Source: Serratia liquefaciens (GTDB lineage Bacteria; Pseudomonadota; Gammaproteobacteria; Enterobacterales; Enterobacteriaceae). From it: a stretch of 37,018 nucleotides of DNA. The notes below the pieces were generated by a model. That model did not search any database, was not told the DNA's origin, and saw nothing but the letters and a program-made list of their open reading frames with translations. Below are positions 3,920 through 16,677 of this stretch, in pieces. Numbering within the stretch: position 1 is the first letter of the stretch; every line of letters starts with the position of its first letter. The stretch covers positions 1-37,018 of the forward strand of contig JAAXZN010000064.1 in assembly GCA_012719855.1 (NCBI GenBank), in the 5' to 3' direction. Position numbers and translations under genes: made by a program.

Positions 3920-3928
3920 TGGCATAAT
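3920..3928 (+). promoter_or_regulatory. Extended -10 element of a likely ybiT promoter
   Basis: TGGCATAAT at 3920-3928 has a TG extension and a CATAAT -10 hexamer 43 nt before the ybiT start. No good -35 is seen at the normal distance, which fits an extended -10 promoter. Confidence 0.4.
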
Positions 3929-3970
3929 GCGCGCCAAATCACATTCCCAATGATATGAAGAGCGAGCGCT

Positions 3971-5563
3971 GTGTTAAGCACTAACAACATCACTATGCAG
4001 TTTGGCAGTAAGCCGCTGTTTGAAAACATCTCCGTTAAGTTTGGCGGCGGTAACCGCTATGGTTTGATCGGGGCCAACGGCTGCGGCAAATCCACCTTTA
4101 TGAAAATCCTGGGCGGCGATCTGGTGCCGAGCGGCGGCAACGTGTTCCTCGACCCCAACGAGCGTCTGGGTAAACTGCGTCAGGATCAGTTCGCTTTTGA
4201 GCAATACAGCGTGCTGGACACCGTTATCATGGGCCACCATGAACTGTGGGCAGTGAAGGAAGAGCGTGACCGTATTTACGCCATGGCCGAAATGAGCGAA
4301 GAAGACGGCTATAAAGTGGCCGATCTGGAAGTGGCCTACGGCGAGATGGACGGTTATACCGCCGAAGCACGTGCCGGCGAACTGCTGCTCGGTGTCGGCA
4401 TCCCGGTTGAACAACATTATGGCCCGATGAGCGAAATCGCACCGGGCTTCAAACTGCGCGTGTTGCTGGCGCAGGCGCTGTTCTCCGATCCGGAAATTCT
4501 GCTGCTCGACGAACCGACGAACAACCTGGACATCGACACCATCCGTTGGCTGGAGCAGGTGCTGAACGAACGTAACAGCACCATGGTTATCATTTCGCAC
4601 GACCGTCACTTCCTGAACATGGTTTGTACTCACATGGCGGATTTGGACTACGGCGAACTGCGCGTGTATCCGGGTAACTACGACGAATATATGACGGCGG
4701 CCACTCAGGCGCGTGAACGTCTGGTGGCGGATAACGCCAAGAAGAAGGCGCAGATTAACGAACTGCAATCGTTCGTGAGCCGCTTCAGTGCCAACGCCTC
4801 CAAATCCAAGCAGGCAACCTCGCGTGCCCGCCAGATCGACAAGATCCAGCTGGAAGAAATTAAGGCTTCAAGCCGTCAGAACCCGTTCATCCGTTTCGAA
4901 CAGGACAAAAAACTGTTCCGTAACGCGCTGGAAGTGGAAGCACTGACCAAAGGTTTCGACAACGGTCCCCTGTTCAGCAAGCTCAACCTGATGGTTGAAG
5001 TGGGCGAGAAAGTGGCGGTGTTGGGCCCGAACGGTATCGGTAAATCTACCCTGCTGAAAACGCTGGTGGGCGATACGTTGCCGGACAGCGGTACCGTGAA
5101 ATGGTCTGAAAATGCCAAGATCGGTTACTACGCTCAGGATCACGAATACGAATTCGATGACACCCTGACGGTGTTCGACTGGATGAGCCAGTGGAAGCAG
5201 GAAAAAGACGACGAGCAGGCGGTGCGCGGCATTCTGGGCCGTTTGCTGTTCAGCCAGGATGACATCAAGAAGAAAGTGAAGGTGTTGTCCGGGGGTGAGA
5301 AGGGCCGCATGCTGTTTGGCAAGCTGATGATGCAGCGTCCTAACATCCTGGTTATGGATGAACCGACCAACCACCTGGATATGGAATCCATCGAGTCGCT
5401 GAACATGGCGCTGGAAATGTATGAAGGCACGTTGATCTTCGTTTCTCACGACCGTGAGTTCGTCAGCTCGTTGGCGACCCGCGTACTGGAAATGACGCCG
5501 ACCAAGGTGATCGACTTTACCGGCAACTACGAAGATTATCTGCGTAGCCAGGGTATCGTGTAA
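3971..5563 (+). CDS. ybiT: ABC-F family ATPase YbiT
   Basis: A 530-residue soluble ABC-F protein, the same length as E. coli YbiT. Two ABC domains in tandem: Walker [10 protein letters not shown] at 34-42 and Walker [11 protein letters not shown] at about 176; second Walker [10 protein letters not shown] at 352-360, with LSGGEKGR signature and [10 protein letters not shown]. The linker at about 245-305 is the charged helical segment ([18 protein letters not shown]) that in ABC-F proteins contacts the ribosome E site and P-site tRNA. The first signature is the degenerate SEIAPGFK, which is also found in E. coli YbiT and is not damage. ABC-F proteins act on translating ribosomes and have no membrane domain. 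The start is GTG, reached from a weak AAGAG. It is monocistronic, closed by a strong terminator. Confidence 0.95.
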
Positions 5564-14093: not shown

Positions 14094-15002
14094 ATGATTA
14101 AGCATTGGCGACGCGACGCCGTACTGAAGGCGATGCCGACAATTGACCCTAACGCGGTGCGAACGCCGTGGCATGAATTCTGGCGGCGATTCCGTCAGCA
14201 ACGCGTGGCGCTGGTCGCTGCGCTATTGGTGCTGCTGTTGGTGGTTGCTGCGCTGCTGGCACCCTATCTGGTTCCCTTTGACGCGGAAAATTACTTTGAT
14301 TACGACCGCCTGAACGAAGGCCCGTCCCTGATGCATTGGCTGGGTGTGGATTCGCTGGGGCGAGACATCTTCAGTCGCATTCTGATGGGGACCCGCATTT
14401 CGCTGGCCGCCGGAGTGTTCTCGGTGCTGGTGGGCGGGCTGATCGGTACGCTGCTGGGGCTGCTGGCGGGCTATTACGAAGGCTGGTGGGATCGCATTAC
14501 CATGCGTATCTGCGATGTGCTGTTCGCCTTTCCCGGCATCTTGCTGGCGATCGGCGTGGTGGCGATTATGGGCAGCGGCATGGCCAACGTGATTATCGCC
14601 GTGGCTATTTTCAGCATTCCGGCATTTGCCCGGTTGGTGCGGGGCAACACCCTGGTGTTGAAGCATCTGACCTACATCGAGTCGGCACGCAGCATTGGCG
14701 CGTCAGACTGGACCATCATCATGCGGCATATTCTGCCGGGGACAATTTCGTCGATTGTGGTGTATTTTACCCTGCGCATCGGCACTTCAATCATCACCGC
14801 TGCCAGCCTGTCGTTCCTCGGGCTGGGTGCCCAGCCGCCAACGCCGGAATGGGGCGCAATGCTCAACGAGGCGCGGGCGGATATGGTGATTGCACCGCAC
14901 GTGGCGATTTTCCCCAGCCTGGCGATATTTATCACCGTGCTGGCGTTTAACCTGCTGGGGGATGGCTTGCGCGATGCGTTGGATCCGAAGTTGAAGGGAT
15001 GA
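14094..15002 (+). CDS. gsiD: Glutathione importer permease
   Basis: A 302-residue DppC/OppC-type permease, one residue shorter than the E. coli protein as I recall it. One membrane helix at about 40-62 is followed by the five-helix core; the EAA docking loop is around 195-225 ([20 protein letters not shown]). It closes the iaaA-gsiABCD operon, 9 nt after gsiC. The last 67 nt before the stop are repeated 803 bp further on, beyond ccdAB. This copy is the complete, functional one and reads IFITVL where the duplicate reads IFLTVL. Confidence 0.95.
14934..15000 (+). repeat. Direct repeat, left copy (gsiD 3' end)
   Basis: These 67 nt, coding for [20 protein letters not shown] and on to the stop of gsiD, match 15737-15803 with a single difference (C at 14955, T at 15758). 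The copies are 803 bp apart and bracket ccdAB. Confidence 0.95.
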
Positions 15003-15115: not shown

Positions 15116-15352
15116 ATGGTCAATAGTAGCTCTGCAAAGAAAACGGTAAACGTGACTGTTGACCGCGAGCTTTTCCAGAAAGCCAAGTCTCTCGGCGTCA
15201 ATGTATCTTCAGTACTGGCTGATGCTTTACATGCGCGAGTGCGCGATATTGAGATCCAACAATGGCGTGAGGAAAATCGTCCTGCACTGGAGGAACTCAA
15301 TCGCATTTCCGAAGAGAATGGTGTGTTATCTGATGAATATCGGGTGTTCTGA
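15116..15352 (+). CDS. ccdA: CcdA-like antitoxin
   Basis: A 78-residue antitoxin. The N-terminal part (KKTVNVTVDRELFQKAKSLG, residues about 8-27) is the ribbon-helix-helix DNA-binding domain. The C-terminal part (QQWREENRPALEELNRISEE then NGVLSDEYRVF) is the flexible arm that wraps and neutralises CcdB. GGGGTGAGG precedes the ATG. It is 2 nt from ccdB, so translation is coupled. Base composition is lower in GC than gsiD and the module sits between direct repeats, so recent acquisition is likely. Confidence 0.93.
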   Translation: MVNSSSAKKTVNVTVDRELFQKAKSLGVNVSSVLADALHARVRDIEIQQWREENRPALEELNRISEENGVLSDEYRVF

Positions 15353-15354
15353 GT

Positions 15355-15663
15355 ATGCAGTTCACGGTTTATCATAATACTCATCCCACATCGGCCTATC
15401 CCTATCTGCTGGATGTTCAAAGCGATCTCATTGATGCGTTGTCGACGAGGTTAGTGATCCCTCTCTACCCTATGGCCAAAGTCAGAACCCCAATTTCTGC
15501 GCGTTTATGTCCAGAAATTGAAGTTAATGGCGAGCGTTACCTGGCGATGACGCATGAAATGGCCAGCATAAGGCTATCGCAGATAGGAGATATCGCCGGC
15601 AGTGCCAATGAGCAGAGAAATCAAATTAAGGGCGCTATTGATTTTTTGATCGATGGTTTCTGA
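15355..15663 (+). CDS. ccdB: CcdB-like gyrase-poisoning toxin
   Basis: A 102-residue CcdB homologue (MQFTVYHN, LLDVQSDLIDALSTRLVIPL, RYLAMTHEMASIRLSQIGDI). F-plasmid CcdB stabilises the gyrase-DNA cleavage complex by contact with GyrA. The F-type C-terminal Trp-Gly-Ile needed for killing is replaced here by Asp-Gly-Phe (FLIDGF). From memory, the Vibrio fischeri type of chromosomal CcdB also lacks the Trp and is active, so the difference alone does not show loss of function. Both genes are intact in frame. Confidence 0.93.
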   Translation: MQFTVYHNTHPTSAYPYLLDVQSDLIDALSTRLVIPLYPMAKVRTPISARLCPEIEVNGERYLAMTHEMASIRLSQIGDIAGSANEQRNQIKGAIDFLIDGF

Positions 15664-15709: not shown

Positions 15710-15805
15710 ATGTTTAGTGTGGCGGAGATATTCCTTACCGTGCTGGCGTTTAACCTGTTGGGGGATGGCTTGCGCGATGCGTTGGATCCGAAGTTGAAGG
15801 GATAA
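15710..15805 (+). pseudogene. gsiD: Regenerated gsiD tail (3' fragment)
   Basis: An in-frame fragment that could be read from ATG 15710 as [14 protein letters not shown] and onward into the gsiD C terminus, ending GGA-TAA where gsiD ends GGA-TGA. Upstream of the 67-nt near-identity the match to gsiD continues at protein level ([10 protein letters not shown] against SLAIFITVL) with one extra codon, so it is the tail of a slightly different gsiD allele rather than a fresh copy. It has no membrane core and is unlikely to work as a protein. Confidence 0.85.
15737..15803 (+). repeat. Direct repeat, right copy (gsiD 3' end)
   Basis: Right member of the 67-nt direct repeat (one mismatch to 14934-15000). 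Recombination between the copies would remove exactly one repeat unit plus ccdAB (803 bp) and leave gsiD intact. Confidence 0.95.
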
Positions 15806-15832: not shown

Positions 15833-16060
15833 ATGAGCAATATGAGTAAAAAGGGAATTAAAACAGGCGTGCTGATTTACATCATCACCTATCTGGGGGG
15901 GCACAGCCTGGTACGCAATTCGTCGCTTCTGGTAGCCTACCCCGATATCAGCTATGTCGATGTGGTTATTGGTTTACTGGTGTATTTTGGTATCTGGAAG
16001 GTTTGTAACCTGATGCAAGCCTTTTACCGCTGGTATAACGGCATCGAAAATATTTCATGA
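15833..16060 (+). CDS. Small two-helix membrane protein, candidate immunity protein (paralogue 1)
   Basis: A 75-residue protein with two likely membrane helices (about 9-27, GVLIYIITYLGG, and 42-61, DVVIGLLVYFGIWKV) and a C-terminal YRWYNG. AAAGGAG at 15820-15826 supports the ATG. It is clearly paralogous to the protein at 16486: both share SSL, a following Pro, SYVD, FG, then FY-x-W and NG-x-E in the same order. Small two-helix membrane proteins next to a double-glycine peptide are commonly bacteriocin immunity proteins; that role is inferred, not shown. I do not recognise a named family. Confidence 0.75.
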   Translation: MSNMSKKGIKTGVLIYIITYLGGHSLVRNSSLLVAYPDISYVDVVIGLLVYFGIWKVCNLMQAFYRWYNGIENIS

Positions 16061-16228
16061 TTTTTAGCGTTAGAGAATACTAATGTACTGAATAAGATTA
16101 ATTCACCTCAAGATTATTATGCTAAGTTTTTAGTTTTTTAATTAAAGAGAGTGTTTTAGTGTTGTCGGTAAATAAATCCAAAACAGATGATTAATCCATT
16201 GCTCTCGTCACGTTTTTAATAATTAAAG

Positions 16229-16257
16229 TTTGCGCTTCTCTCTCATGATTATATTAT
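16229..16257 (+). promoter_or_regulatory. Possible promoter of the peptide gene
   Basis: TTTGCG (16229-16234) and TATTAT (16252-16257) with 17 nt between, in a very AT-rich 262-nt stretch (16061-16322) before the peptide gene. The -35 is weak. No other gene is seen in this stretch. Confidence 0.35.
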
Positions 16258-16322
16258 CGCCATGGTTGTCCGATGTATCTATTTGTGAGAGGTTAATAAC
16301 TTTAGTTCATGGAGTGAATAAT

Positions 16323-16439
16323 ATGACTATTCGTGAGTTAACATCGCATGATCTTGATTTAATTTCTGGCGGTGACGCTGACTCCGGGCCGAGGGGCGAC
16401 AGGATGTCCTGGGGGGAAATAATAGCCCTAATAGTGTGA
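16323..16439 (+). CDS. Double-glycine-leader peptide precursor (bacteriocin/microcin-like)
   Basis: A 38-residue peptide starting MTIRELTSHDLDLISGG. The first 17 residues match the double-glycine leader consensus cut by C39 peptidase-ABC exporters: Leu at -12, Thr at -11, Asp at -8, Leu at -7, Ile at -4, Gly-Gly at -2/-1. The core would be only 21 residues, polar and Gly/Asp/Arg-rich first (DADSGPRGDR), then hydrophobic (EIIALIV). GGAG at 16311-16314 lies 8 nt before the ATG; the frame is open upstream but has no other start with a site like this. It sits between two paralogous membrane proteins. The core is much shorter than known class II microcins, so a signalling peptide is also possible. 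No C39 exporter is in the window. Confidence 0.75.
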   Translation: MTIRELTSHDLDLISGGDADSGPRGDRMSWGEIIALIV

Positions 16440-16485
16440 ATGGTCAGTGCCGTTGGTAATATCTCCCGCATCAATGGAATATCAA

Positions 16486-16677
16486 ATGAAAGACGTTATA
16501 TATGTCGCTTTATGGATATGGATATCATTTGATTTAATTCAATACTCTTCACTGGCCCTTATTAAGCCTCATAATAGCTATGTGGATATTGCCGTGGCGG
16601 TTTTCGCCTTTTTTGGCGTGAAGGCGGTAATGACTTCAGTTGAGAATTTTTATTATTGGTTTAATGGCCGGGAATAA
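16486..16677 (+). CDS. Small two-helix membrane protein, candidate immunity protein (paralogue 2)
   Basis: A 63-residue protein from ATG 16486 (GGA 6 nt upstream); in-frame starts at GTG 16447 and ATG 16474 have poorer ribosome sites. Two membrane helices are expected at about 4-25 (VIYVALWIWISFDLI) and 33-50 (DIAVAVFAFFGVKAV), then FYYWFNGRE. It shares the order SSL-P-SYVD-FG-FY-W-NG-E with the protein at 15833, showing duplication of one gene around the peptide gene. It begins 46 nt after the peptide stop, so peptide and this protein are probably one transcript, which fits an immunity role. Confidence 0.72.
   Translation: MKDVIYVALWIWISFDLIQYSSLALIKPHNSYVDIAVAVFAFFGVKAVMTSVENFYYWFNGRE

Follow-up and report, generated by a model that had tools for sequence, protein, structure and literature searches.

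Gene content of the gsiD-fghA gap

The window analysed here is a stretch of 37,018 nucleotides from Serratia liquefaciens, which lies on contig C59 of the strain's own genome (G000). It contains gsiD (14094-15002), followed by a small cluster on the forward strand and, beyond it, two genes on the opposite strand that we take to be fghA and frmA; these names, like gsiC and gsiD, are presumed from the gene sequences and their order. The first gene of the cluster, imm1 (15833-16060), is intact and encodes a 75-aa putative immunity protein. An intergenic stretch (16061-16322), which according to the alignment is also present in one genome of the same species (G007) and one of the same genus (G006), leads to the remains of a microcin gene. 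The 5' remnant (16323-16387) encodes a double-glycine leader and the first five core residues, the deletion junction (16388-16393) has net 196 bases fewer than G007, which changes the frame, and the 3' remnant (16394-16459) continues in another frame with GRQDVLGGNNSPNSVNGQCRW (16394-16456) and a stop codon. A 38-codon double-glycine frame can be read at 16323-16439 on the same strand. The last gene of the cluster, imm2 (16486-16677), is intact and encodes a 63-aa putative immunity protein, or one of 67 aa if the ATG at 16474 is the start.

The sequence-only reading had described the flanking genes as paralogues that encode small two-helix membrane proteins, and their paralogy was confirmed. 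The local alignment of imm1 and imm2 scored 104, while 1000 shuffles gave a mean of 25.7 (sd 5.1) and a maximum of 52, and a search with imm2 as query retrieved imm1 in its own genome (E 3e-7). A simple hydropathy scan showed two hydrophobic stretches in each protein. They are 97% (imm1) and 98% (imm2) identical to their G007 counterparts, imm2 being only one amino acid apart. Neither had a Pfam or NCBIfam match at E up to 1, or a PHROGs match at E up to 0.1. The locus tag of the imm1 homologue P0024 (S. liquefaciens SMI40_002001) adjoins that of microcin P0005 (SMI40_002000). A scan for promoters and terminators found 10 promoter-like sites (4.6 expected by shuffling) and two terminator-like sites (1.4 expected), and established no regulatory site.

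The imm1 gene contains a run of seven Gs (15895-15901), which is the only G or C run of at least seven in the window. The tract also has seven Gs in G007 and six in G006, where the frame is broken, and protein P0028 reads as if there were eight. Slippage or phase variation is a possible cause of this variable tract, and sequencing error is likewise possible. Upstream of imm1 lies a CcdA/CcdB pair (15116-15663; Pfam E 4e-25 and 7e-34) flanked by two copies of the gsiD 3' end (14921-15000 and 15724-15803; 80 bases, 94% identical). The pair is missing from G007 and G006, and looks as if it had been inserted with a duplication of the gsiD gene end. Diverged ccdAB genes also occur in the gsiD-fghA gap of G019 and G018; in G018 ccdB is split in two frames.

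Deletion and frameshift in the microcin gene

The 38-residue frame has Leu at -12, Leu at -7, Ile at -4 and Gly-Gly, and its leader matches the consensus as the sequence-only reading had stated. That reading's view of the frame as a complete precursor with a core of 21 residues did not survive the comparison with relatives, where the frame is the 5' end of a 110-codon gene. When the 38-residue peptide was searched against 30 genomes of the genus, seven gave matches at E up to 1, of which those in the strain's own genome, G007 (E 6e-8) and G006 (E 1e-6) were strong. In the latter two, only residues 1-26 were matched, within open frames of 152 codons (G007) and 142 codons (G006). All matches outside the window end at residue 26 or 31 and lie inside open frames of 117-152 codons. 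The membrane proteins are kept in relatives, whereas the 38-residue frame is not, an outcome that the sequence-only reading had named as refuting its proposal.

The intact microcin gene of G007 and G006 encodes 110 aa with the C-terminus NSVNGQCRW. Around it, gsiC, gsiD, imm1, imm2, fghA, frmA and the next two genes have the same order as in the window, with 95-100% identity; the exception is imm1 of G006, which is split in two frames. BLAST aligned window positions 16387 and 16393 to positions 4582050 and 4582252 of G007. These anchors enclose 201 bases in G007 and five in the window, so that 196 bases net are lost, which is no multiple of three; the multiple DNA alignment gave the same figure. 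The final 21 codons of the lost frame, with their stop, persist at 16394-16459, and a translated search found both ends of the microcin apart from each other (P0003 residues 3-41 at 79% and P0002 residues 90-110 at 95%). Only DADSG precedes the junction in its original frame and place; the other sixteen of the 21 core residues stand at the junction or out of frame. Because the deletion and frameshift left only these five residues in the original frame, the 21-residue core is, judged from the sequence, a deletion artefact. The window contains no complete microcin precursor frame and the gene is a pseudogene of its family, with the deletion being known only from one draft assembly of 70 contigs. 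Translation after the frameshift ends at 16439, upstream of the intact gene's stop, which would lie 14 bases before the ATG at 16474. This earlier stop could lower or change imm2 expression.

Twelve protein relatives of the microcin were found, with lengths of 87-130 aa. The organism was named for three, all Serratia (S. liquefaciens twice and S. proteamaculans once). The C-terminus is NSVNGQCRW in eleven and NSVNGQYRW in P0010. Nineteen family members were aligned, without P0003 and P0010, and all of them have NSVNGQC, followed by RW in 17, HW in one and R in one (a row clipped ahead of its last codon), while the middles vary widely. A coding-pattern scan of genome contigs for NSVNGQCRW gave at least seven stretches in five strains, all Serratia; the list is incomplete, as G008 and G021 bear the motif and are absent from it. 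With tblastn, 72,556 plasmid records yielded two matches, both Pantoea agglomerans. In the one record examined of the two, plasmid NZ_CP143403.1, the microcin gene lies directly behind genes for HlyD, a peptidase-ABC protein and ClpP. A search of 394 genomes of the order with the microcin profile gave the strain's own genome as the only match among the matches listed, which informs little about the range since at most 12 candidates per genome were scored in those rows and the sample holds few Serratia. The letters NSVNGQC, NGQCRW and NGQCHW were not found in one search of accessible main texts of papers.

Intact microcins P0001 and P0002 have a double-glycine leader. P0001 gave a weak match to Pfam Bacteriocin_IIc (E 0.0086; 16.5 bits, short of the cut-off of 27.1) and P0002 matched a pheromone model below its cut-off (E 0.16). 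The C-terminus NSVNGQC(R/H)W differs from the serine/glycine-rich end of class IIb (siderophore) microcins. Since their gene anatomy matches, as in the Pantoea relative behind HlyD, peptidase-ABC and ClpP genes, the intact relatives are, on sequence grounds, Serratia class II microcins. Two other C-termini, GGTCNW in the microcin at the exporter locus of G017 and GGKCSW in a microcin-like gene on contig C64 of the strain's own genome, suggest that G-x-C-x-W may be a wider pattern.

Immunity genes and exporters among the genomes

At E up to 0.001, the immunity profile gave 26 matches, which fall in 14 of the 30 genomes. Grouped by hand, these form 21 loci; a family microcin lies within 1.5 kb of 12 loci and of none of the other nine. 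A family microcin means here any of the 18 profile matches with E < 1e-14, and other microcin families fall outside the count. The nine include the window, a partial remnant with stop codons in G023 and a weaker match on contig C6 of G020. At the gsiD-fghA site itself an immunity gene is present in eight genomes, with the microcin intact in two (G006 and G007), deleted in one (the window) and undetectable in five (G004 and G017-G020). The gene at this site is of the imm2 type and open in G017-G020, and a single imm1-type gene in G004; searches for microcin remnants beside these genes gave only short matches at chance level. Among the imm2-type genes of G017-G020, dN was 0-0.049 and dS 0.025-0.295; in each of the six pairs, which differ by 1 to 16 changes, dN is the lower value. 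The G004 genome had no C39 match, so its imm1-type gene cannot be part of a C39 system that works in that genome. Two tandem imm-type genes follow a microcin in G020, and G018 has such a tandem pair where no family microcin was found (L045 and L046). In G017 (L040 6727-7534), a 114-aa family microcin lies between small hydrophobic frames of 65 and 72 aa that show no likeness to imm1 or imm2 by eye, and is a further example of a microcin flanked by a pair of small membrane proteins.

The sequence-only reading noticed no exporter, peptidase or modification gene close to the cluster. Likewise, reading of the window's open frames of at least 100 aa revealed neither a C39 exporter nor a modification gene. 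Contig C45 holds the genome's only Peptidase_C39 match, in a frame of 726 aa; ahead of it come a 422-aa frame that reads as HlyD-like and a small hydrophobic frame of 93 aa. Three genomes, G000, G007 and G006 (the last with imm1 frameshifted), were found to carry the peptide or what remains of it together with both membrane proteins, and each has one C39 match. This agrees with the co-occurrence that the sequence-only reading had proposed as a check, and runs against its second refuting condition, that no genome with the trio encodes a C39 exporter. In the whole set, at least one C39 match is present in each of the 13 genomes where the family matched at E < 1e-14, and 11 of the 17 others have one as well. 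The association of the microcin family with C39 across the 30 genomes is therefore consistent but not strong.

In G017, a gene for a 120-aa double-glycine peptide (L044 5200-5562) lies in front of the counterpart of the 93-aa small protein. The exporter loci of G000 and G007 retain the small protein, with no such microcin found there, and the small protein of G006 is itself broken. The 93-aa protein at the strain's own exporter locus (L035 6185-9914) is perhaps a second orphan immunity protein. The strain's own ABC exporter (L035 9636-9914) reads LDEANSHLD near the ATP-binding site, where G006, G007 and G017 have LDEATSHLD. The genome further contains microcin-like genes on C19 (113 aa, ending in NSVNGQCHW; E 2e-16) and on C64 (115 aa from its ATG, ending in GGKCSW; weak profile match, E 0.0019), and a small hydrophobic frame follows each (L073 1501-2101; L118 about 3928-4560).

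Probable toxin loss with retained putative immunity, and known systems

The locus is very probably a class II microcin that has become a pseudogene, beside putative immunity genes that were retained and are probably protective. What is observed is the deletion, the intact genes of relatives, the conservation of the neighbouring genes and the recurrence of the immunity family without a family microcin. The gsiD-fghA gap would once have held a complete chromosomal cassette of imm1, the 110-codon microcin gene and imm2, and an internal deletion with frameshift has destroyed the microcin gene in this strain, leaving both putative immunity genes open. By analogy with class II microcins in general, the precursor in relatives would be cut after Gly-Gly by the C39 domain during export, presumably in trans by the C39 peptidase-ABC transporter encoded elsewhere in the genome. 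The mature peptide would then enter related bacteria through a receptor and inhibit them, and the imm1 and imm2 proteins would sit in the inner membrane, block it and so protect the producer.

The sequence-only reading was right to see a double-glycine system of the C39-exporter type. Among its options were an undescribed minimal bacteriocin and a peptide signal, with processing of the 38-residue precursor into an active 21-residue core. The intact leader with its fit to the consensus and the presence of a C39 exporter in the genome agree with this idea. However, 16 of the 21 core residues stand at or past the junction and do not belong to the original frame, which can still be read alongside, and matches elsewhere leave the peptide at residue 26 or 31 within much longer frames. 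None of the results speaks for a peptide signal with receptors. A functional short peptide is thus extremely improbable, and we rejected it on the evidence for deletion and frameshift. That the strain truly has an intact microcin gene, and that the deletion is an error of assembly or sequencing, is conceivable for a draft genome in 70 contigs, but we consider it very unlikely: substitutions relative to G007 occur on both sides of the junction, including the leader, the contig runs without gaps through the locus, and the alignment showed no repeat of collapsible length at the junction.

It is harder to dismiss that the microcin is dead and that imm1 and imm2 are leftovers awaiting decay, which no longer protect the cell. 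The window and G007 are close, as shown by the single amino acid between their imm2 proteins, so little time has elapsed for decay, and imm1 is broken in G006 and an immunity remnant is broken in G023. On the other hand, open imm2-type genes are present in G017-G020 without a detectable microcin remnant, the imm1-type gene of G004 stands alone, and dN is below dS in every pair from G017-G020, albeit on few changes. We therefore regard simple leftovers as rather unlikely. Retained immunity is the reading we prefer. With imm1 and imm2 open and the microcin between them deleted, the window holds an orphan immunity set, one of three options that the sequence-only reading had left open, and the two genes probably still act against the microcin of sister strains. 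Since imm1 is broken into two frames in G006 while the microcin there is intact, imm2 is the likelier cognate immunity gene, and imm1 may serve against another microcin allele. A broader scheme seems doubtful at present: the gap would be a recurring docking site for microcin-immunity alleles and CcdAB, with immunity kept alone as a shield and imm1 switched by slippage of its G tract, and the microcins would form their own subclass, in which differing cores share the tag NSVNGQC(R/H)W for uptake or modification.

Class II microcins of S. marcescens with adjacent membrane immunity proteins were described in 2026 (Parker and others, PMC13101503). According to the accessible part of that report, putative class II microcins occur in 1,562 (96%) of 1,621 assemblies, usually several per genome, some are sited apart from the exporter genes, and a peptidase-ABC exporter is present in all but 5 of the 1,562; the immunity proteins are mostly unannotated and 17 microcins have shown activity. 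As far as described there, the S. marcescens microcins SM001-SM080 resemble the family studied here in their double-glycine leader, in the several microcins per genome, in the C39 peptidase-ABC exporter that is sometimes encoded elsewhere, in the small, mostly unannotated membrane immunity proteins beside the microcin and in the lack of a canonical class IIb C-terminus (PMC13101503). In G007, imm1 and imm2 likewise flank the microcin as adjacent small membrane proteins with a putative immunity function. Unlike SM001-SM080, the gene in the window is deleted and its peptide cannot be made. The P. agglomerans microcin on NZ_CP143403.1, annotated as 'hypothetical protein', aligns with the G007 microcin along its full length at 46% identity and ends in NSVNGQCHW, but in contrast to the window locus it stands directly behind its own exporter genes.

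The locus is of an ordinary kind, a class II microcin that decayed while its immunity was retained. Mapping it removes a false lead, the 21-residue bacteriocin, and replaces it with a mapped loss of a toxin whose immunity is kept, with modest added interest in the gsiD-fghA gap as an immunity site, the variable G tract of imm1 and the conserved C-terminal tag. Orphan immunity is described for E. coli plasmids, where the accessible text reports 243 plasmids and 53 orphan microcin immunities, some with heavily truncated toxin genes alongside (PMC12546727). The window resembles these in having immunity genes without an intact toxin; it differs, as far as that text goes, in lying on a Serratia chromosome at one conserved intergenic site where the toxin is intact, deleted or absent depending on the genome. 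This same-site series of intact, deleted and undetectable toxins would allow a chromosomal test of 'toxin loss or immunity gain', the question raised for the E. coli plasmids in the accessible part of that paper (PMC12546727).
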